Source: Physcomitrium patens
Taxonomy: Eukaryota > Streptophyta > Bryopsida > Funariales > Funariaceae
Length of the DNA stretch: 64,000 bases
NCBI RefSeq assembly: GCF_000002425.4
Contig: NC_037257.1
Coordinates: 15,986,733-16,050,732, forward strand
Direction: 5' to 3'
In this document: piece after piece, positions 2,561-46,499 of the stretch
Layout: each line of letters starts with the position of its first letter
Position numbering within the stretch: position 1 is the stretch's first letter
The notes under the pieces: generated by a model
Databases searched by the model: none
Seen by the model: only the letters and a program-made list of their open reading frames with translations
What the model was told of the DNA's origin: nothing
Made by a program: the position numbers and the translations under genes

Positions 2561-2628
2561 AAAGCTCCTCCGGAATGGTGAAAGGGTCACATACATGTCG
2601 TTAAGGAACGAGCCCCCCGAGGAGGTTC

Positions 2629-2640
2629 AAAACCCTAATT
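2629..2640 (+). promoter_or_regulatory. telo-box (AAACCCTAA)
   Basis: The sequence AAAACCCTAATT lies about 40 bp before the ATG at 2680. Telo-boxes are common in plant promoters of translation and growth genes. Here the box supports reading the GC-rich island as a promoter or 5'-UTR, although no gene is proven. Confidence 0.4.
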
Positions 2641-2679
2641 TCTCTGTTTCCATCTCCGCTCCACGACCTCCACACGACA

Positions 2680-2826
2680 ATGCCAATGAAGAAGCGCAAG
2701 CTATGGAATGGAATGCAGAGCCATGATCCGCACTTCTTCAACTTCACTTCTTCTGCGGAAATGCAAGGGCGTCGAGTCCCCGAGTGCCAAGGCGCAGGGG
2801 ACACTGGAGCAATCGACCTCCAATAA
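2680..2826 (+). CDS. hypothetical 48-codon open frame in GC-rich island
   Basis: I do not recognise this product. The frame starts MPMKKRKLWNGMQ and ends at TAA (2824-2826). It has a basic N-terminus, no membrane segment and no motif I can name. It is the first ATG after the telo-box and a pyrimidine-rich leader, which is the only positional argument for it. It could be a short peptide gene, an upstream ORF, the first exon of a split gene (no clear donor follows), or chance. Overlapping longer frames on both strands reflect high G+C and few stops rather than evidence of coding. Confidence 0.15.
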   Translation: MPMKKRKLWNGMQSHDPHFFNFTSSAEMQGRRVPECQGAGDTGAIDLQ

Positions 2827-2905
2827 AGACTCGAAGACACGTTGGGGAAGGAAACGACAGTGCTGTCGTTGTCGTCGTCCTCTCCCCCTCGGGGCAACAC
2901 ACCGC

Positions 2906-2930
2906 CTCGTCTCGTCTCGTCTCGTCCCGT
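2906..2930 (+). repeat. (CTCGT)5 pentanucleotide repeat
   Basis: Five tandem CTCGT-type units, the last one varied to CCCGT. They lie inside the GC-rich island and look like a simple sequence repeat. Confidence 0.8.
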
Positions 2931-3456
2931 CAGAGCCGCACAGCACAGCACAAGCACAGCGCAGCAAGGCGAGCTGAGCAGAAAAGGGTGGAGGGGACGA
3001 TGATCCATATCCGAAAGGATCTCTCCGCTTGCCAGTCCTCGTCACTAATGTGTCGTGGCTGTACATCCAACAAAGATTTCATTCCCCTGCTTCGCCTGTC
3101 AGCCAAGATATTGTGGGACTGCAGCCCGATGAGGCGGAAGCCGCGCTTCAAGCAAAGCAGCAGCCCCTCCTACCCTGCAGCAGCAGGCAGCAGCTTCGGC
3201 AACTGTGGCCCCCCCATGATTCCTCCCACCACCTGCAATCCTGAACTTACCCCCATTTCTGCACCCTGCCCTATAATCAAGCACTCATGTCTTATCTCCC
3301 GTTCTCCCCCCCCCCCGCGCTCTTTTGTCCTTCTCCTCCGCCCTCGCATACTCGCTTCACGCGTCTTTGATTACCCAAGCAAATGCAGCACGAACCAACA
3401 ACGACCACAACTGTAACGCCGATGGGTCCGACGTGCGGTGCAATTGAGGGTTTGGA

Positions 3457-34403: not shown

Positions 34404-34990
34404 ATTTTTTTATAAACTATTTTTTTTATAAAATTATTTGATTTATTTTTTAATTATGAGTTTTTAAGTTTCTAACAATGTAATTTATTATATTGATATT
34501 TGATCTTCATTTTGCTTCAAACTCTAATGTTGAGAATTAATAATAAATATAAGATACAGTTCGTCTATTTCATCAAAAGAAAATTTAAATTTTATATAAT
34601 ATTTTACTTCATGACTAAATTTAGCTTCTTCTGGAATTTTCTGGAATAAATTCATGACTAAATTTAGCATTATAATTTTTTCTTACAGTAATCCTCAGAC
34701 AACATGTTTGTTTTAACTTTACTTTATAAATTGTTAATTCAAATTTTCAATCTTTTTATCAAATTCCAATTCTTGAATTATTGCCTGAAAGTTAATGGGT
34801 TGCCTGCTTGAATCAAAATTTCTAGCATACATAGGATTTTAAGAAGAATATTTTAAATAATATTTTCTTTTACCATCAATACATAAACATGCATTATTCA
34901 TTTAACTTCATTAGATATACTAAGAATCAAAATTTATTATTATTATTATTATTATTATTATCATAGTCATAATTTAAATCCTAATTAAAA
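33296..34990. other. A+T-rich stretch, nothing recognised
   Basis: It includes AT microsatellites at 33565-33597 and 34367-34400, an (ATT)n tract near 34937-34961, and an 18-bp direct repeat (ttcatgactaaatttagc near 34607 and 34653). The frame at 33846-34073 is short, has no motif and begins in a T-rich run, so I do not call it a gene. Confidence 0.45.
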
Positions 34991-37663: not shown

Positions 37664-38027
37664 TGTCATGGACATACATATGTAAACCAATCATTACCTA
37701 TATGATTAGATAAAATTAGATAAAAATAGAATAATTCTATAATATCTTCTATATAAACTTTATAGACATTTTTTTAACTTTATATGTATCTGTAATTGAT
37801 TTTTTAGATTAAAAATGTGGTCAACAAGTTCGCCATGTGCTTGATATATTGGTAGCTTGAACAACAAGCTAACTATGTGGTCTACACATAGAAAACTTAT
37901 CTTGTAAGCTAAGGCATGTGTCTTGCAAAGTCAACATATATTAGAGGTCCTATAGAACATCGCCACATAGTTCCTAGTTAGATGGTATATATAGAGGCAA
38001 AAGTGAAGCCTTCTTCATTCTTGAGCA
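37664..38027 (+). mobile_element. 5' LTR of copy C4 (3' part deleted)
   Basis: It begins tgtcatggacatacatatg and follows the Gyp1 LTR through the TATA region (gatggtatatatagaggc, 37983-38000) to 'ttcttcattcttg', then jumps straight to leader sequence just before the gag ATG. The deletion removed the end of the LTR and the primer binding site. Confidence 0.8.
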
Positions 38028-38057
38028 ATACTAGACATTTATTTTTTAAGTATTATT

Positions 38058-39040
38058 ATGGCAGAGCTTGTTGAAATAAAAAGTGCAATGGCACAAATGC
38101 AAGAATAATTGAGAGAGTTTAATACTTGCAATGCATCAATTCAATTTATCATCACAAAGAGCAATAAGAATAGTATGAAGTAAAGATATAGATACGATTG
38201 GAGTTGCTTTAATATTTGCATCCAATCAGATTCCTTCTCTTAAGGTAGAACATCCTTCCAATACTAGAGAATCAAGAGTTGTTCTGTCTGAGAAGTTTGA
38301 TGGTACAAGATCTAAGTTTTGAGGATTCATCAATCAAGTACAACTTATGATTGAACTTCAATCCCAAAGCTATTCAGCTCCAAGATCACAAATTAGATTT
38401 ATTGGTACACTTCTTTTAAATTCAACATTATCGTGGTTTTTATTTTTTTGAATGAATAGATCTAATATTGAATAATTTAGAGACTTTTTAGCAAAGTTTT
38501 GATTTATGTATAGAAAACATGATGCAACTCATGTTGCAACTAATAAGATCCGTATTTTATAACAAGGCAATTGATCCGTAATATTATATGCTTCAGAATT
38601 TTGATAATTTTTAATTCATATCAAGTAGAATGATACTGCACTTATTAGCCAATTTTTCTATGGATTACAATATGAGGTAAAGAAATTAATGCTCAACTTA
38701 CCTGATCCTCAAATACTTAGTCAAGAAATTGATTTTGTTATGAAGTGTGACAATTGACTTTTGAAATTTTAATTTGAAAGTCAAATAAGTGGGCCTTAAT
38801 ATTATAATAATTCAATAGCAACACAACTGCCTCCTCAACACATACATTCAAAAGTAAAAGATATATAAATTGATGTGATACATTTCAAATCTCTTATTGA
38901 ATAAGAAAAGACTCGTCGTCATCAGGAAGGATTGTGCTTATATTATGAAGAACCTAAGCACACTCCTCAATATTGACCAAAGAAGTGACGTAATTATAAA
39001 ATGAAGAGTACAAATATCAAAGAAGATAATATATCAAAAA
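38058..39040 (+). pseudogene. Gyp1 gag (C4), many stops
   Basis: It starts at the ATG 38058 with MAELVEIKSAMAQMQE, then a stop (CAA to TAA type) after 16 codons. Further blocks are readable: KFDGTRSKF-GFINQVQLMIELQPQSYSAP (38296-38380), the capsid stretch to about 38500, a LPDPQILSQEIDFVMKCDN-like stretch, and a zinc-knuckle remnant GLCLYYEEPKHTPQY (about 38930-38975). The CCHC box has lost cysteines. It is not functional. Confidence 0.8.
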
Positions 39041-39109
39041 ATAAATTTGTCTAAGTATAATAAGTATTGTACAACTGGAATCTTGTACAATATCTAATAA
39101 AGGGCATAT

Positions 39110-39393
39110 TTTCTCTTCAAAATCCCTTCTTTATTTTATATTAAATATTATTTTAGGATCTATACATTACAAAGCCTTTGCCTTGTTAAATTCAAATGCC
39201 TCAACATGTTTCTTAGATAAAGAATTTACTAAAAGACTTAACATATCTTTAGTAAAGAAAACTAAATTTGTTCATGTAGAAGTCATGGATGGTGGTTTGT
39301 TATCTTCTAGATATGTTATTCACAAAATCTTTCCTATACAAGTAATAACCAATAGTCATAATAGCTTTGTTTTATTTAATATTATTAGATCTC
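39110..39393 (+). pseudogene. Gyp1 protease remnant (C4)
   Basis: The open piece at 39183-39473 begins LNSNASTCFLDKEFTKRL, which corresponds to LDSGASACFLDEQFVKS of the young copy. The catalytic Asp has become Asn and Gly has become Asn. It continues KFVHVEVMDGGLLSS and FNIIRSL, then the frame runs into the solo LTR at 39394, so the last residues of that open frame are LTR-encoded. Confidence 0.8.
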
Positions 39394-39413
39394 TGTTAGG
39401 GACATATTCTTTA

Positions 39414-39709
39414 GAACTTTCTAGAGAGAAGTTTCTATTACCTTTTAGAAAACAAGCCTCTGGAACCTTCTAGAAGAGAAGCCTCTGGAACCTTTTAGAG
39501 AGAATTTTCTAGAAGCTTCTAGAAAGGAAGTCTCTGGAACCTCCTAGAAGAGAAGTTTCTAGAAGCTTCTAGAAAGGAATCCCCTGGAACTTTCTAGAAG
39601 CTTCCTAGTTAATAGAAGTAGCTCAAGAAGTTTCTAGAACCTTCTAGAAAAGAAGCCTCTGGAACCTTCTAGAAGCTTCTTAGTTAATAGAAGTAGCTCG
39701 AGAAGCTTC
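39414..39709 (+). promoter_or_regulatory. array of heat-shock elements (GAAnnTTC units)
   Basis: Contiguous, correctly phased units (GAA and TTC alternating every 5 bp) occur as: 2 units at 39414-39421, 3 at 39463-39475, 5 at 39502-39524, 5 at 39552-39574, 4 at 39587-39604, 5 at 39627-39649, 4 at 39662-39679 and 2 at 39702-39709. Trimeric heat-shock factor needs three units, so at least six clusters meet the rule. The pattern sits on tandem repeats of 50 bp (39481-39530 and 39531-39580) and of 75 bp spacing (39584-39632 and 39659-39707). The last unit lies about 11 bp upstream of the TATA box. Response to heat is inferred from the motif. Confidence 0.88.
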
Positions 39710-39720
39710 CTAAGTAGGAG

Positions 39721-39728
39721 TATATATA
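39721..39728 (+). promoter_or_regulatory. TATA box of HS-LTR
   Basis: TATATATA followed by GGGATCAAGG, in the same relative place as TATATATAGAGGCAAGAG in Gyp1 LTRs. It lies directly downstream of the heat-shock-element array. Confidence 0.75.
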
Positions 39729-39888
39729 GGGATCAAGGTTGAAGAGTTCTTCAGTCTCGACAACACATCTCTTGGAGTTCTAGTTCACCTTTCTGGTGTT
39801 GTTCTTGTACTCATCTGTTTAATCTAGTTTTGCCACTTCTTCTTGAACTTCTTGTTAGATTTCAAGTCTGTATTTTGTGTCCGTGACA

Positions 39889-40154
39889 ATCTCCCTCTAA
39901 TCCAATTATTTTAGACTTATTATAGTTAAAAAAAATATAATCTTTGAGTAGATGCAATAGCTTTCTTGCATGATGTAAAAAAATAATTATCTTGTGTCAT
40001 TTATGCCACACCTATTTCTGATGGTGCAAAGACTTCAAGTAGCATTTCAATCTAATATCAAGAATTTTAAGATGTATTTGAGAAAAAAAATGTGGTAACT
40101 CTTTCAGAACATTGTCCTTATGATTGCTCAATTGACCTTCAAGAAGGAACATAA
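39889..40154 (+). pseudogene. Gyp1 protease-RT linker (C4)
   Basis: After the solo LTR the C4 coding resumes with sequence matching the linker near 17040-17400 of C3. It ends with a [14 protein letters not shown]-like stretch (about 40110-40154), which matches [14 protein letters not shown] ahead of the RT in the young copy. The young Gyp1 element then interrupts it. Confidence 0.65.
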
Positions 40155-40692
40155 TGTCAAGGACAAGAACTCGATGAAAAACAATTCAGACAAGTGAGCC
40201 TTCACTCAAAGAGAAGTAAATAAACAAATATATATATTGAAAGAGAAACTGGAATGGCTATTGCCAAAAGACAAGAAAACTAGAGACCCTTGAAACTAGA
40301 CTAGAAGCAAGAAAGGAGTTGACAAGAATGAAGAGAGCTTCACTCTTGCCTCTATATATACTATCTAACTAGAAGCCACGTGGCAATATTCTATAAGACC
40401 TCTAATATGTGTTGACTTTCTAGGCCACATATCTTTGCTTGCAAGGCAAGTTTTCTATGAGTGGACTACGTAGTTAGCTTGTCCTTCAAGCTACCAATAT
40501 GTGTGGCACATGGCTAACTTGTTGACCAAGTTTCTAACCTAAAAGTCAACTATGGACTCCTATAAGATCAAAGCAGCATCTATGAAGCTTTTAGGAAGCT
40601 TCTCTAAAAGATATTGCACAATTAACCTACTTTTATCTACTTTTACATACTTTTATCGACTCTTGTAGGTCATTATATGTATATCCGTGACA
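40155..40692 (-). mobile_element. 3' LTR of young Gyp1
   Basis: Ends tgtcaagg...ccgtgaca. A TATA element (ctctatatatactatc, plus-strand 40350-40365) lies in the expected place for minus-strand transcription. It also has a single GAAnnTTC pair, so it lacks the dense heat-shock array of the LTR at 39394. Confidence 0.95.
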
Positions 40693-40708
40693 TTACCCCC
40701 TCTTCTAG
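40693..40708 (-). promoter_or_regulatory. polypurine tract of young Gyp1
   Basis: Read on the minus strand, CCCTAGAAGAGGGGGTAA-type purine-rich sequence lies directly before the 3' LTR. This is where plus-strand DNA synthesis would be primed in reverse transcription. Confidence 0.75.
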
Positions 40709-41284
40709 GGACGAGTTCCACGAGGAGCAGTGATTATATGTTGAAAAAGTCTAATATGTGGCGAAATATATTTGCTACATACTCTTATCTCTGTTCTCTT
40801 CGAAGGTAGTTGATGGGTCCTCTTAGCCATCGATAGTGTCCCATTCCAGGGCAAAAAGACCAACCTATTATTTGATCATTATTGAGGCCTTCATAACTTC
40901 CTTCAAATAATACATTTGAAACACCATCAGCAATCGTTCCTATCTCCAGTAATATCACCAAACATCGAGAATCTCTTCCAAGGTCGTGATACCAAACGCG
41001 TAGTATCTCACCATCTATTCGAGGAAGAACATGTCATTCTTGAGGGTCTTCATCTCGGTTGCGTCGTCTTGAAGGTTGTGACAATCGCAATGTCTCATCT
41101 GGTAAGTCAGCAAACGAAGGTTCTTGAGTTGAATCCATTGGTTATTGGCTCTCCATCTAATTAGCGTCACAAATGCAAAGAAGTTACAAACAAGGATAGG
41201 AAATTGAATGTTATCTTGCCTCAATCTTGTCTCTTTTATAAGAGAGATTTTCATCTTGATTTTGATGGATGTCGTTGATGAAAA

Positions 41285-41420
41285 ACTTTGACTTTAGCTA
41301 ATGCATTTGTTAGATTCCTGGATGGCTCCCATGTGCGTTCACTAATATCATATCCGCGCCAATGAACAAGTTATTCCAGCTTATTTCGGTGCCGCCTTGA
41401 GTCTAATATCTCTTCCACCT
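41285..41420 (-). pseudogene. Gyp1 chromodomain interrupted by a stop
   Basis: The polyprotein ends ...EEFEVEEILDSRRHRNKLE and then meets TAA at 41371-41373. Reading on in the same frame gives LVHWRGYDISERTWEP, the core of a chromodomain (beta strands with the W and helix-leading TWEP). In the older copy at 47340-47576 the same place reads NKLEYLLYWLGYD, so one base change created the stop at a tyrosine codon. Chromodomains at the integrase C-terminus mark chromoviruses and are known to guide integration to certain chromatin. This copy would make an integrase lacking most of it. Confidence 0.88.
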
Positions 41421-43425
41421 CAAATTCTTCATTATTATCTACTTCTATAGGAGGCCGTGGCATTTGTCTTCTTCCTTGTATATCCACTGTCTTATATGGT
41501 TCAAGAAGAGACACGTGGAATACATGATGGATCTTCATTGACTCCGGTAGATGTAACCGATATGCAACTGGGTTGATCTGTTCAGAAACAGAAAAAGGGC
41601 CAAGCCTACGATAGTCCAACTTGTCACAAGGTCGAGTAGTCTTGATATTGCGATGAAGTAGCCATACCTTATCACCCACGTTGAGTTGTGGTTGCTCCTT
41701 ATGATATAGATCTGTGTTTATCTTTTGTCGTTCTTGAGCTTCCTTCAATTGCGTCTTCATTATTGCATGTAACTCTGACAACCGATTTGCTATATCTTCT
41801 GCTGCAGGATTATCAACTTTTAAAAAATCAAAAGTATCAAGTTGTGGATGATAGCCATAATTGGCAAAGAAAGGTGTTTGTTGCGTGGAAGAATATATCC
41901 TATTATTATAAGCAAACTCTACCAATGGCAGAAGGGTTGTCCAATCATCTTGTTGGTAGTTGATAGTACACCTTAAATATTGCTCCAAGACTTGGTTTAC
42001 GCGCTCTGTTTGTCCATCAGTTTGAGGATGGAAAGCCGAAGATAGCTTTATGTCCACTTTTAAAATCTTGAAAAGTGTCCTCCAGAATCTTGACACAAAT
42101 TGAGTTCCCCTATCCGATATGATATCTTTAGGTAATCCATGATAGCGATAGATATTATCAATGAAAAGCTTAGTTGTTTCTTCACCTGTGATAGATTTTG
42201 TATATGGCACAAAATATGCCATCTTGGTGAAATGATCTACTATCACAAATATAGAATCATAAGATCTTGAGCTTGGAAGATCTGTGATGAAATCCATAGA
42301 AACAGAAGACCATGGTTGTTCTGGTATAGGTAATGGCTGAAGAAGTCCGTAAGGTCGATGACGAGGAATTTTTGATCTTGAACAAATATCACATGATTGT
42401 ACAAAGTCTTTGACTGACTTCCACATTTGTGGCCACCAAAAATCTCTTGATATGAGTTCCAAAGTCTTATTATATCCAAAGTGCCCTGTTGTTGGAAAGT
42501 CATGACGTGCTTGAAGAACACGTAAACGTGCTTCTCCTTCTGAAACATATAGGCGTCCTTCAAAATATAATAGATTATTCTTGAACTCGAACTTACAAGG
42601 ATCATGAGACTTGGAAGAATTATTCTCGATATCATGAACAAGAGGGTCTGAGGACATACTGGACTGGATTTGCTTGAGAAAAGTTGAATCAACAGTCAAT
42701 GTTGATTTCATTGCTCGGAGATGAAATTGCTCCGGTTTCAAGAGGACCGATCTTTGTTGCTCAAAAGCTACATCTCCTTCTTTTGGTGCAAAATAAGAAC
42801 GTCTAGATAGGGCATCAGATAAACCTTGTTGTTTTCCTGGCCGATAAATGATAATGAACTCAAATCTTGACAAAGACATACTCCAACAAGCTTGACGACG
42901 ATTCAATACGCGTGCTGACATGAAATACTCGAGGTTCTTATGATCTGTATATATAGTGACTGGACTAGAAGCACCTTCTAGATCATGACGCCATTCTTGA
43001 AAGGAATCCACGATCGCAAGAAGTTCTTTATCGTGGATCTCATAATTGATCTCGGCTGCTAAGAATTTTCTTGAATGAAAAGCTATCGGAAGAAGTTTGT
43101 CATCTGATCCCATTTGTGATAAAACTGCACCGAAGGCAAAATCTGATGTATCTGTTTCCATAAAAAATGCCTTGGAAAAGTCAACACGATATAAGACTAG
43201 TGCGGAGACAAACGATGTCTTTAAGGCTTCAAATGCTGCTTCCGCTTCTTGATTCCATTGGAATTTATCTTTACTTGTCAAGCGAGTAAGTGGAGCTGCA
43301 ACTCGTGAGAAATCTTTGATGAAGATCCGATAGTAATTGGCAAATCCCAAGAAATATTGGACATCTCTTACTGTCCTTAGAATCTTCCAATCCATGATTG
43401 TTTGGACTTTCTTAGAATCCATCAT
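41371..43425 (-). CDS. Gyp1 pol: RT thumb, RNase H, integrase (open 684-codon frame)
   Basis: This is the longest open frame in the window, but it is an internal segment of pol and has no start of its own. The first ~40 residues are the RT thumb. RNase H follows (about 75-215), with Asp92, Glu134, Asp161 and Asp204 in positions expected for catalysis. The integrase zinc domain has His308, His315, Cys345 and Cys348. The catalytic core has Asp378 (SMDFI), Asp438 (SDRG) and Glu474 (TERVN), giving 35 residues between the last two (DD35E). The C-terminal part holds the GDKVWLL and LGPFSV motifs and the start of a chromodomain. All catalytic residues I can check are present. Expression would need the upstream frame to be open, and it is not. 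Confidence 0.93.
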   Translation of the reverse strand: MMDSKKVQTIMDWKILRTVRDVQYFLGFANYYRIFIKDFSRVAAPLTRLTSKDKFQWNQEAEAAFEALKTSFVSALVLYRVDFSKAFFMETDTSDFAFGAVLSQMGSDDKLLPIAFHSRKFLAAEINYEIHDKELLAIVDSFQEWRHDLEGASSPVTIYTDHKNLEYFMSARVLNRRQACWSMSLSRFEFIIIYRPGKQQGLSDALSRRSYFAPKEGDVAFEQQRSVLLKPEQFHLRAMKSTLTVDSTFLKQIQSSMSSDPLVHDIENNSSKSHDPCKFEFKNNLLYFEGRLYVSEGEARLRVLQARHDFPTTGHFGYNKTLELISRDFWWPQMWKSVKDFVQSCDICSRSKIPRHRPYGLLQPLPIPEQPWSSVSMDFITDLPSSRSYDSIFVIVDHFTKMAYFVPYTKSITGEETTKLFIDNIYRYHGLPKDIISDRGTQFVSRFWRTLFKILKVDIKLSSAFHPQTDGQTERVNQVLEQYLRCTINYQQDDWTTLLPLVEFAYNNRIYSSTQQTPFFANYGYHPQLDTFDFLKVDNPAAEDIANRLSELHAIMKTQLKEAQERQKINTDLYHKEQPQLNVGDKVWLLHRNIKTTRPCDKLDYRRLGPFSVSEQINPVAYRLHLPESMKIHHVFHVSLLEPYKTVDIQGRRQMPRPPIEVDNNEEFEVEEILDSRRHRNKLE

Positions 43426-43429
43426 GAGA

Positions 43430-44380
43430 CCATCATTTGAAATGATGTATCCTAAAAAGTCAACTTGAGTAGTGTGAAATACACACTTTTTCTATCTTGG
43501 CGTACAATCTTACATCTCTAAGTTTTTGTAATACTTGACGAACATGTATTTCATGTTCTTCGACGTTCTTAGAATAGATCAGGATATCGTCTAGATAGCA
43601 GACGACAAAATTGTCTAAGAATTCACGAAATACATCATTCATGAGATGTTGAAAAGCAGCTGGTGCATTCGTGAGTCCAAAGAGCATAACATTATATTCG
43701 AAATGTCCATACCTGGTTCAAAATGCAGTCTTCCATTCATCTCCTTCTTTGATCCGTACTAGATTATATGCTCCTCTTAGATCTATTTTTGTATAGATCT
43801 TAGCTTAATTCAACTGGTCAAGGAGTCTTGATATCAAAGGTAATGGATACCTGTTCTTGATTGTGATCTTGTTGAGTCCTCGATAATCAACACACATTCG
43901 TAAAGATCCATCTTTTTTCTTTACAAATAGAATTGGAGCTCTTGTTGGAGATTTTGAATGGCGTATGAAATTCTTCGCTAAATTCTCGTCAATATATGTC
44001 TTGAGTTCAACCATCTCATCTTGCAATAAACTGTAAATTGGTCCAAATGGTGGCTGAGTTCCTTCCTTGAGGTCGATTGAACAATCATATGGGCAATGCT
44101 CAGGAAGAATATCTGCATTCTTTTTCTCAAAAACGTCTTGATACTCCTGATATTGACTTGGAATGCCACTTGAAGTCTTTACGTTTTCAGAAATAGGTGC
44201 AGCATAAATAGCAAAAGTTGATGCTTCTTTTGCTGCGTGTATAAATGCTTTTGTACCTATCAGTACGGGTTTTACTATACTAGACTTATAATTTTTTACT
44301 TGGTTGGTATAACTATTAATAACGCTCTGGAAAAAGTCAAGTTTATGTGAATTTCAATCTATTCGAGGATTATATTTTTC
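43430..44380 (-). pseudogene. Gyp1 reverse transcriptase with two stops and a frameshift
   Basis: Readable blocks include [14 protein letters not shown], then [19 protein letters not shown] and [16 protein letters not shown] (43805-44026), [20 protein letters not shown] and the active site [11 protein letters not shown] (43460-43687). Between the two open pieces lie a TAA (43802-43807 area, Gln-type codon) and a TGA (Arg-type codon, near 43717). Near 43485 an A run is one base longer than the frame allows (KIEK then VCISHYSS instead of the expected CVFHTTQV), shifting the frame before the thumb. Both stops look like C-to-T changes. Confidence 0.9.
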
Positions 44381-44383
44381 TAA

Positions 44384-44740
44384 CTAGGATAAACCTAAAA
44401 TAACTAGATTGGACAGGGATTTAATTATGTTAAAAGCTATGTAGCTATCATGACCGTCTATTGTTACTTTTATAGGATGAGTTTCATGAGTGACATTTCC
44501 AGAAGACAAGGGACGACCATCTATGACTTCTATATGTACTGGTTTAGGTTTCTGTACAAAAGGTATTTTACGACTTTTAACAAATTGTTCATCTAAAAAA
44601 CATGCTGAGGCTCCTGAATCTAATAAAGCAGAGGCTTTGTAATTCTTAGGTCCTAAATATAAGTCTATTATAAAACAAAGAGAGGGTTCTGAGGAGAGGA
44701 TAGGACCTTCATTAGGAATTGTATAAGGTTCCAGCTGCAT
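44384..44740 (-). pseudogene. Gyp1 retropepsin-type protease
   Basis: The open piece has the catalytic motif ALLDSGASACFLDEQF at about residues 38-53 and the later IEVIDGRPLSSG and IKVTIDGHDSYIAFNIIKSL stretches typical of gypsy proteases. The frame is the same as the RT piece (43460-44026) and different from gag (44746-45120), so an indel, or a natural frame change, lies near 44740-44746. The protease would cut the gag-pol polyprotein inside the particle. It closes at a stop near 44384, before the RT lead-in. Confidence 0.85.
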
Positions 44741-44745
44741 GGTCC

Positions 44746-45750
44746 CTATTGTAGCTGGATGAATCCGTTTTCCGACATGTTGTCTTCTTTGACCGTCGTA
44801 CCCCTCATTTTATAGTTGCGTCGTTTCTTTGGACAATGTTGAGCAGTGTGCTTAGGTTCTCCGCAATATAAACATAATCCTTCTTGATGACGACGAATCT
44901 TTTCTTGCTCGGTTAGGGGTTTAAAACGTACCGCGTCAATTTGCATGTCTTCTACTTCCGAATGTACGTTTAGCAAAGATGTTGATGTTGCCATTGAGTA
45001 ATAACGTTGAGGTTCCCGTGAATGATTCTCGGATCGAAATTTGAAAAGTCGATTATCACATTTTATCGCAAAATCGATTACTTGACTCAAAGTTTGAGGA
45101 TCAAGTAAGTTGAGCATCAATTTCTTTACTTCGTATTACAATCCATAAAGAAATTGAGTGATGAGTGCAGCATCATCCCTCTTGATGTTAATTGCAAGTT
45201 GTTGAAATTATGAAGCATACACTATTAGTGAGCGATTTCCTTGTCGCAAAATTCGGATCTTATTTGTTGCAACACGAGTTGCATCATGTTCACCATACAT
45301 AGATCAAAACTCCACCAAAAAAACTTCCAAATTGTCCAATATTGGATTTTGTTGTTCAAGAAAAGATGAAAACCACGATAATGCAGAACCAGAAAGTAGA
45401 GTGCCAATAAACCTGACTTGTGATCCTGGAGTTGGATAGCTTTGCGGTTGAAGTTCAATTGCCAATTGTACTTGATTGATGAACCCTCGAAACTTTGATC
45501 TCGTACCATCAAATTTCTCGGGTAAGGCAATTCTTGGTTCTCTAGTGCTTATAGGGTGTTGTACAATTGGAGAAGGAATGTGATTTGTTGCAAATGTTGA
45601 AGTAGCTCCGATCATCTCTATATCCCCACTTTCTGCTATTCTTGTTCTTTCATGTGTTGGTGAATTGAGTTGATGCATCGCAAGCATTAATTCTCTCATT
45701 TGCTCTTGCATTTGTACCATTGCACTCTTCATTTCAACAAGCTCTGCCAT
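44746..45750 (-). pseudogene. Gyp1 gag with CCHC zinc knuckle and three in-frame stops
   Basis: The start codon is 45748-45750 (MAELVEMKSAMVQMQEQMRE), shared with copies at 537 and 38058. The capsid region includes GTRSKFRGFINQVQLAIELQ and VRFIGTLLSGSALSWFSSF. The frame meets TGA near 45301, then two TAA codons (near 45210 and 45137) before reopening as MLNLLDPQTLSQVIDFAIKC. The nucleocapsid zinc knuckle CLYCGEPKHTAQHC (CX2CX4HX4C) is intact. It ends TAG at 44746-44748. Gag would build the virus-like particle and bind element RNA. Here only fragments could be made. Confidence 0.92.
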
Positions 45751-45921
45751 AATGACACTAAGAAGAAAAATTTGTTTGATACTGCTCAAGACAAAAGAAA
45801 AGAAAGACTTGATAACAAAGAAGATATTAAGAACAATATCAGTGTAGAAGTGGGTAATCCGCAAACTTCTAATACGCTTATGTCTTGTTAAGAGAAAGGG
45901 ATAATCCACTCTTACTCAAGA

Positions 45922-45942
45922 AAAACAAAGCTCTGATATTGT
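45922..45942 (-). promoter_or_regulatory. candidate primer binding site (initiator Met tRNA-like)
   Basis: On the minus strand, ACAATATCAGAGCTTTG lies 20-25 nt after the 5' LTR. It shares TATCAGAGC with the widespread plant primer site TGGTATCAGAGC, complementary to initiator Met tRNA, but the leading TGG is changed. The distance to the LTR is larger than usual. Confidence 0.45.
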
Positions 45943-45961
45943 AAGTGTACTCTTCCCATTC

Positions 45962-46499
45962 TGTCAAGGACAAGAACTCGATGAAAAATAATTCAGACAA
46001 GTGAGCCTTCACTCAAAGAGAAGTAAATAAACAAATATATATATTGAAAGAGAAACTGGAATGGCTATTGCTAAAAGACAAGAAAACTAGAGACTTTTGA
46101 AATTAGACTAGAAGCAAGAAAGGAGTTGGCAAGAGTGAAGAGAGCTTCACTCTTGCCTCTATATATACTATCTAACTAGAAGCCACGTGGCGATATTCTA
46201 TAAGACCTCTAATATGTGTTGACTTTCTAGGCCACATGTCTTTGCTTACAAGGCAAGTTTTCTATGAGTGGACTACGTAGTTAGCTTGTCCTTCAAGCTA
46301 CCAACATGTTTGGCACATGGCTAACTTGTTGACCAAGTTTCTAACCTAAAAGTCAACTATGGACTCCTATAAGGTCAAAGCAGCATCTATGAAGCTTTTA
46401 GGAAGCTACTCTAGAAGATATTGTACAATTAACCTACTTTTATCTACTTTTACATACTTTTATCGACTCTTGTAGGTAATTATATGTATATCCGTGACA
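45962..46499 (-). mobile_element. 5' LTR of young Gyp1
   Basis: Same ends and length as the 3' LTR. Differences between the two are mostly C/T or G/A. The plus-strand ctctatatatactatc at 46157-46172 is the TATA region on the coding strand. Followed by the right-hand duplication cataa (46500-46504). Confidence 0.95.

Follow-up and report, generated by a model that had tools for sequence, protein, structure and literature searches.

Does a solitary long terminal repeat (LTR) in the moss Physcomitrium patens carry a heat-driven promoter, and if so, to what kind of element does that promoter belong? The LTR lies in a 64-kb stretch of the genome (the window). The initial annotation, made from the letters of the window, had described it as a solo LTR on the plus strand with a dense array of heat-shock elements (HSEs) upstream of its TATA box, and had likened it to ONSEN, the heat-activated copia element of Arabidopsis. 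P. patens has 27 chromosomes, about 470 Mb of DNA and eight heat-shock factor (HSF) genes. Our search of the genome with the HSF DNA-binding domain gave eight matches, ending after 59-60 residues.

The features of the locus are collected in Table 1. TG...CA ends and a 5-bp target-site duplication identify window 39394-39888 as the LTR of a retrotransposon, and because the copy in the window has no element body it is a solo LTR. It was inserted into a decayed older gypsy element, as similarity to both flanks is collinear with window 45799-44058. A minus-strand orientation, prompted by the CTCC that follows the GTGACA end, was excluded by full copies elsewhere in the genome. The purine tract AGGAGGGGGTGA precedes nine of 13 three-prime LTRs (a variant of the tract precedes the other four), and on the downstream side of the five-prime LTRs of full copies stands GTTTGTCGAGACT or something close to it. 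Purine tract and primer site are thus placed as in a plus-strand LTR. The LTR itself, its solo state and its orientation were therefore borne out by the ATCTC duplications and by comparison with the full copies. An Rfam search of the window returned zero matches.

Table 1. Features of the solo LTR and its immediate surroundings (window coordinates).
Feature	Position	Strand	Remark
Older decayed gypsy element, left part	38011..39393	+	38011-39396 75% identical to 45799-44413
Left target-site duplication ATCTC	39389..39393	+	perfect match to right copy
Solo LTR, 495 bp, TGTTAG...GTGACA	39394..39888	+	boundaries as in LTRs of full copies
U3 (enhancer array and core promoter)	39394..39752	+	extent inferred from self-primer position
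Minisatellite-like array enclosing the heat-shock elements	39408..39709	+	overlapping periods of 25, 50, 74-75 bp and others
Heat-shock element run, 3 units	39463..39475	+	perfectly phased GAA/TTC
Heat-shock element run, 5 units	39502..39524	+	perfectly phased GAA/TTC
Heat-shock element run, 5 units	39552..39574	+	perfectly phased GAA/TTC
Heat-shock element run, 4 units	39587..39604	+	perfectly phased GAA/TTC
Heat-shock element run, 5 units	39627..39649	+	perfectly phased GAA/TTC
Heat-shock element run, 4 units	39662..39679	+	perfectly phased GAA/TTC
TATA box TATATATA	39721..39728	+	39721 = start
AGTCTCGACAA, inferred 5' end of R and self-primer	39753..39763	+	reverse complement of the 11-nt primer site
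Right target-site duplication ATCTC	39889..39893	+	perfect match to left copy
Older decayed gypsy element, right part	39894..40154	+	39949-40150 74% identical to 44259-44058, order continuing

The surroundings of the LTR consist of layered nested insertions. A gypsy element with both LTRs, a TTATG duplication and one 684-aa frame occupies the minus strand at window 40155-46499, and ten more pieces like its LTR (72-83% identity) are scattered over window 813-58001. The LTRs of this neighbouring element are 538 bp long, 96.8% identical to each other and different from the solo LTR, while its body is 69% identical over 3.4 kb to that of L014, a full copy of the solo LTR's family. By eye, the neighbouring LTRs match the commonest site seen in their own family with one mismatch in 11, and at least 2649 primer-site junctions within three mismatches of that of the window copy are present genome-wide. 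At window 2601-3416, where the DNA is richer in G+C (0.375 between 2001 and 4000), frames of 121-210 aa overlap one another; a Pfam scan of the 210-aa frame alone gave no match.

The U3 of the window LTR contains six runs of three to five alternating GAA/TTC units between 39463 and 39679, all upstream of TATATATA. Our recount agrees with the coordinates given earlier for the three five-unit runs and with the number of four-unit runs (two), and adds the three-unit run; the "about 30" units of the initial annotation correspond to 26 phased units in runs of at least three, or 34 when four pairs are counted. In 1000 dinucleotide-preserving shuffles of a slice 3 bp longer than the LTR, runs of at least three averaged 0.018 (maximum 1, against 6 observed) and units in such runs averaged 0.054 (maximum 3, against 26), so that the density upstream of the TATA box is indeed far above chance. 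Part of this density could be the product of slippage alone, as the array consists of tandem repeats. The rest of the window holds just four runs of at least three, at 34629, 43063, 53937 and 62848. The one at 34629-34646 is a four-unit element in A+T-rich DNA, lacking similarity to the LTR family. The 217-bp array contains 0 CG sites (8.9 expected) and four CHG sites, and CHH context accounts for 80 of the 88 cytosines of the two strands.

To which kind of element the LTR belongs was answered by the full-length copies, a search for which the initial annotation had proposed. A whole-genome search with the LTR (G000, 470.4 Mb) gave 40 complete or almost complete LTRs with 97-100% identity (40 of the 2414 candidates were scored) and one 50-bp match beside a full match; full copies such as L014 and L017 were found. 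When pieces of these elements were searched separately, L014 matched gag, protease and integrase, and L017 matched gag, protease (RVP), RT, RNase H, integrase (INT), SH3_Tf2-1 and Chromo. Gag, protease, RT, RNase H and integrase, in this order and with a C-terminal chromodomain, are the parts of a Ty3/gypsy chromovirus. RT precedes integrase, the reverse of the Ty1/copia order, and the capsid is of the Ty3 type. In the L017 chromodomain Y, W and Y (by eye, one copy) occupy what we take to be the places of the aromatic cage, as in group I chromodomains. The coding region is split among several frames in the three copies with frames listed (L014, L017, L024). The pol of the element resembles fungal pol, and a relative in the moss Ceratodon purpureus (73% over 67%) was among the best 120 matches, below a record labelled Kitasatospora that was taken for contamination.

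The way in which the element is primed points in the same direction. In full copies the primer site lies 2 nt past the 5' LTR; it starts with letters other than TGG and complements 11 nt (AGTCTCGACAA) at LTR position 360, 32 bp downstream of the TATA start. Among 37 five-prime LTRs with an exact site, 31 contain the 11-mer without mismatch, at 135 to 138 bases upstream of the LTR end. Self-primed elements have been delimited, in one study, by LTR complementarity of 10 or more nt to a site 0-5 nt after the 5' LTR (PMC6317226), and the 11 nt at 2 nt distance found here lie within those bounds. As the primer site is complementary to the element's own LTR, the family looks self-primed, in an arrangement like that of Tf1/sushi elements. 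The family is thus a Ty3/gypsy chromovirus with chromodomain and apparent self-priming, and the copia reading modelled on ONSEN has to be given up. We assign it to the Tcn1/Tf1-sushi type, a placement made by domains and priming.

The array proved to be shared by the family LTRs that were sampled. Perfect five-unit elements number 3267 genome-wide, a six-unit run being scored twice, compared to 11 for the reversed control pattern, and neither LTR of the neighbouring element has any run of three (one LTR was put through the shuffle test and its partner was also checked). An equal HSE density in unrelated A+T-rich DNA, which the initial annotation had named as grounds for dropping its reading, was therefore not observed. 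The first 100 five-unit places listed form 44 clusters on contig C1 up to 12.8 Mb. All 44 fall within matches to the window LTR, and in all 44 a match to LTR positions 321-495 (promoter, R, U5) lies within 450 bp of the element; these clusters thus lie in LTRs of the window-LTR family or its older relatives, including distant ones with 74-80% identity (L032, L038, L039, L044). Extrapolation from this start of one contig suggests about 1600 five-unit clusters genome-wide. Two further distant relatives in this set, L045 and L048, are 74-75% identical over approximately half of the LTR and have one five-unit run each. They represent a shorter related LTR with a single run, possibly an early stage of the array.

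Junctions between LTR and primer site number 3061 genome-wide with up to three mismatches (control, 0). Exact junctions on C1 up to 12.8 Mb came to 42 among the matches listed, nine of them beside five-unit clusters. From the remaining 33 a second set of 20 five-prime LTRs was chosen for having no five-unit run; in three of these (L087, L088, L096) the LTR start was not located and a fixed cut was applied. Runs of at least three were present in all 20, with 4 to 18 units each, and 19 exceeded all 500 shuffles while L095 was equalled by one of the 500. The 49 LTR extractions (46 distinct places), picked by similarity or HSE content and hence biased, contained between 3 and 9 runs, with 12 to 36 units in total. 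The array was present in every family LTR sampled, always upstream of the TATA box; in having HSF-type elements of at least three units in its U3 the family agrees with heat-responsive retrotransposons. The array first noticed in the window is confirmed and reaches far beyond one LTR, in an element class that differs from the first reading.

The sequence of the array varies considerably between copies. The window LTR represents one type of U3 (A), and by eye the second set divides into types B (5), C (7) and D (8). Alignments of four B, six C and six D copies with the window's A show that type C is a B-like start joined to a D-like middle. Type D is 91-93% identical to the window LTR from LTR position 278 to the end, yet further upstream the plus strand of seven of the eight D copies matches A only in blocks of at most 42 bp. 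The exception, L089, has a 163-bp match at 69%. Short opposite-strand matches between D and A (22-58 bp) are such as palindromic units would give, and, judged by eye, type D spells its units differently while keeping GAA/TTC in 5-bp phase. The D array is accordingly much diverged and differently spelled, and an independent origin for it is weakened by the short matches shared with A and by L089.

The LTR pairs of 13 insertions (a fourteenth, L066/L067, was left out because one boundary failed) differ at 6 to 22 sites, which puts them at 0.68 to 2.84 My if one assumes the 9e-9 rate of a P. patens study (PMC7466625). Five of the 13 pairs also differ by a single block of 35, 50 or 75 bp; target-site duplications were exact in four of these and had one mismatch in L047/L056. 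As the two LTRs of an insertion normally derive from a single U3, such blocks suggest that array units came or went while the element inserted or later, or that other copies caused conversion. In a comparison of 41 unique LTRs of 495 bp no site-level constraint on HSE triplets was visible, as expected of dead copies: C/G positions of the triplets vary at 0.038, compared to 0.023 (spacers) and 0.025 (rest) for other CHH-context positions, and all triplet positions vary at 0.0141 versus 0.0134 for the remaining LTR. Separately, L071 (C1:7801000) and L072 (C1:7932600), LTR copies 132 kb apart, have the same downstream flank, which is a probable segmental duplication.

We consider it reasonably likely, with a probability of about 0.6, that a self-primed gypsy chromovirus of the Tcn1/Tf1-sushi type has its promoter end in this LTR, with a U3 that is a minisatellite of heat-shock elements driven by HSF. 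Under heat, HSF trimers would occupy the array and draw transcription to a start at about 39753, and the resulting transcript would prime its own reverse transcription. The array would gain and lose repeat units such that the number of HSF sites differs between copies. The copy in the window would have lost its body through LTR-LTR recombination, leaving at best a dormant heat enhancer or promoter. From sequence, HSF-driven heat transcription of the family is the best reading we can infer, and one published expression pattern may contradict it.

That pattern concerns the gypsy families of P. patens as outlined in the excerpts of PMC7466625. RLG1, a chromodomain family with 5092 complete copies and the commonest transposable element, is reported to be expressed in protonema free of stress and to be repressed under heat shock. 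RLG2 (529 complete copies) responds to heat and to ABA with strong induction, and for RLG3, a polymorphic family, expression was not detected. Compared by description and copy number, all three are gypsy families of the same host as ours, and 3061 junctions lean toward RLG1 rather than RLG2. This leaning counts against simple heat induction, which identity with RLG2 would favor. In a rival reading, which the behaviour of RLG1 and its similar order of abundance favor, the array might be bound by HSFs through developmental or basal HSF activity and serve expression in unstressed tissue, with heat neutral or even lowering expression as general repression wins. We think this unlikely: an account of heat-responsive COPIA ranks four or more nGAAn units in a row as the strongest heat elements (PMC5059998), identity with RLG1 is tentative, and the neighbouring family is similarly abundant with at least 2649 junctions.

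It is rather improbable that the array is a neutral minisatellite, a TTCTAGAA-rich repeat dispersed through slippage and recombination between LTRs whose palindromic unit yields the match to HSEs as a by-product. The tandem periods of 25/50/75 bp, the block differences in five of 13 assessable single-insertion pairs and the zero constraint visible on HSE triplets all suit such a repeat, as do the matches between A and D, 163 bp long in L089, by which the arrays may have one origin. However, D holds the 5-bp phase with other spellings although seven of its eight copies match the plus strand of A in blocks of at most 42 bp, the array lies upstream of the TATA box in all LTRs sampled, and the two LTRs of the neighbouring element are devoid of it. 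Since all sampled five-unit elements are in the family or its relatives, the arrays might instead titrate HSF, so that they would act chiefly on the heat response of the host rather than on transcription of the family itself. We give this very little credence, as most copies are probably in closed chromatin and the benefit to the element has no clear reason. A broader proposal is doubtful: that the family and its relatives own practically all top-tier HSF sites, that their U3 keeps evolving as a heat-shock minisatellite in which repeats are gained and lost and blocks exchanged, and that heat bursts both mobilise the family and divert HSFs from host promoters; if true, such diversion would tune the moss heat response. 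Should copies of the family respond to heat, every insertion, even a solo LTR, becomes a candidate heat enhancer, and the host lends itself to genetic tests.

Several known systems share parts of this arrangement, as far as the excerpts of the cited reports extend. Putative HSEs are present in the LTRs of the Cryptococcus retrotransposons TCN3 and TCN12, which are mobilised mainly at 37 C; TCN3 is, like the moss family, a Ty3/gypsy element with 5-bp duplications (about 6.3 kb), but the host is a fungus and the putative HSEs are two in TCN3 and one in TCN12 (PMC12810828). In Caenorhabditis a single class of transposable element, the Helitrons, has most genomic HSEs (61.4% in C. elegans) in dense clusters (PMC6927752). 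Helitrons are DNA transposons, whereas in the moss one LTR retrotransposon family and its relatives are involved and the 44 of 44 five-unit clusters rest on a stricter motif. Tcn1-clade chromoviruses of mosses and lycophytes resemble the family in their aromatic-cage chromodomain, moss host and closeness to fungal Tf1/sushi elements, and the excerpted descriptions, unlike our family, make no mention of heat-shock elements (PMC2864245, PMC6317226, PMC3350952). Self-priming is predicted for most Tcn1-clade elements of mosses and club mosses (PMC6317226). Among the titles and abstract openings returned by a literature search, none dealt with heat-shock elements in moss retrotransposons.

A further parallel is with ONSEN/COPIA78 and other heat-responsive Brassicaceae COPIA elements, again as described in excerpts (PMC3907296, PMC5059998). 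These have HSF-type elements in the LTR, as does the moss family; the strong ONSEN element was born from duplication of a smaller motif, which is reminiscent of the moss array; and CG sites are rare or absent in both, the LTRs of ONSEN 1 and 2 being reported as CHH-only (PMC3907296). They differ in that heat-responsive COPIA are Ty1/copia elements with few copies, whereas the moss family is Ty3/gypsy, apparently self-primed and has 3061 junctions. In these reports, heat-responsive plant retrotransposons have small clusters of three to six heat elements, four nGAAn in ONSEN and up to six in TERESTRA, compared to 26 phased units in the moss window copy (PMC3907296, PMC5059998). The moss case, by comparison, is a gypsy chromovirus family of about 3000 junctions with repeated heat-element clusters, and its regulatory array seems to evolve within the LTR as repeats are added or lost and as U3 blocks are exchanged.
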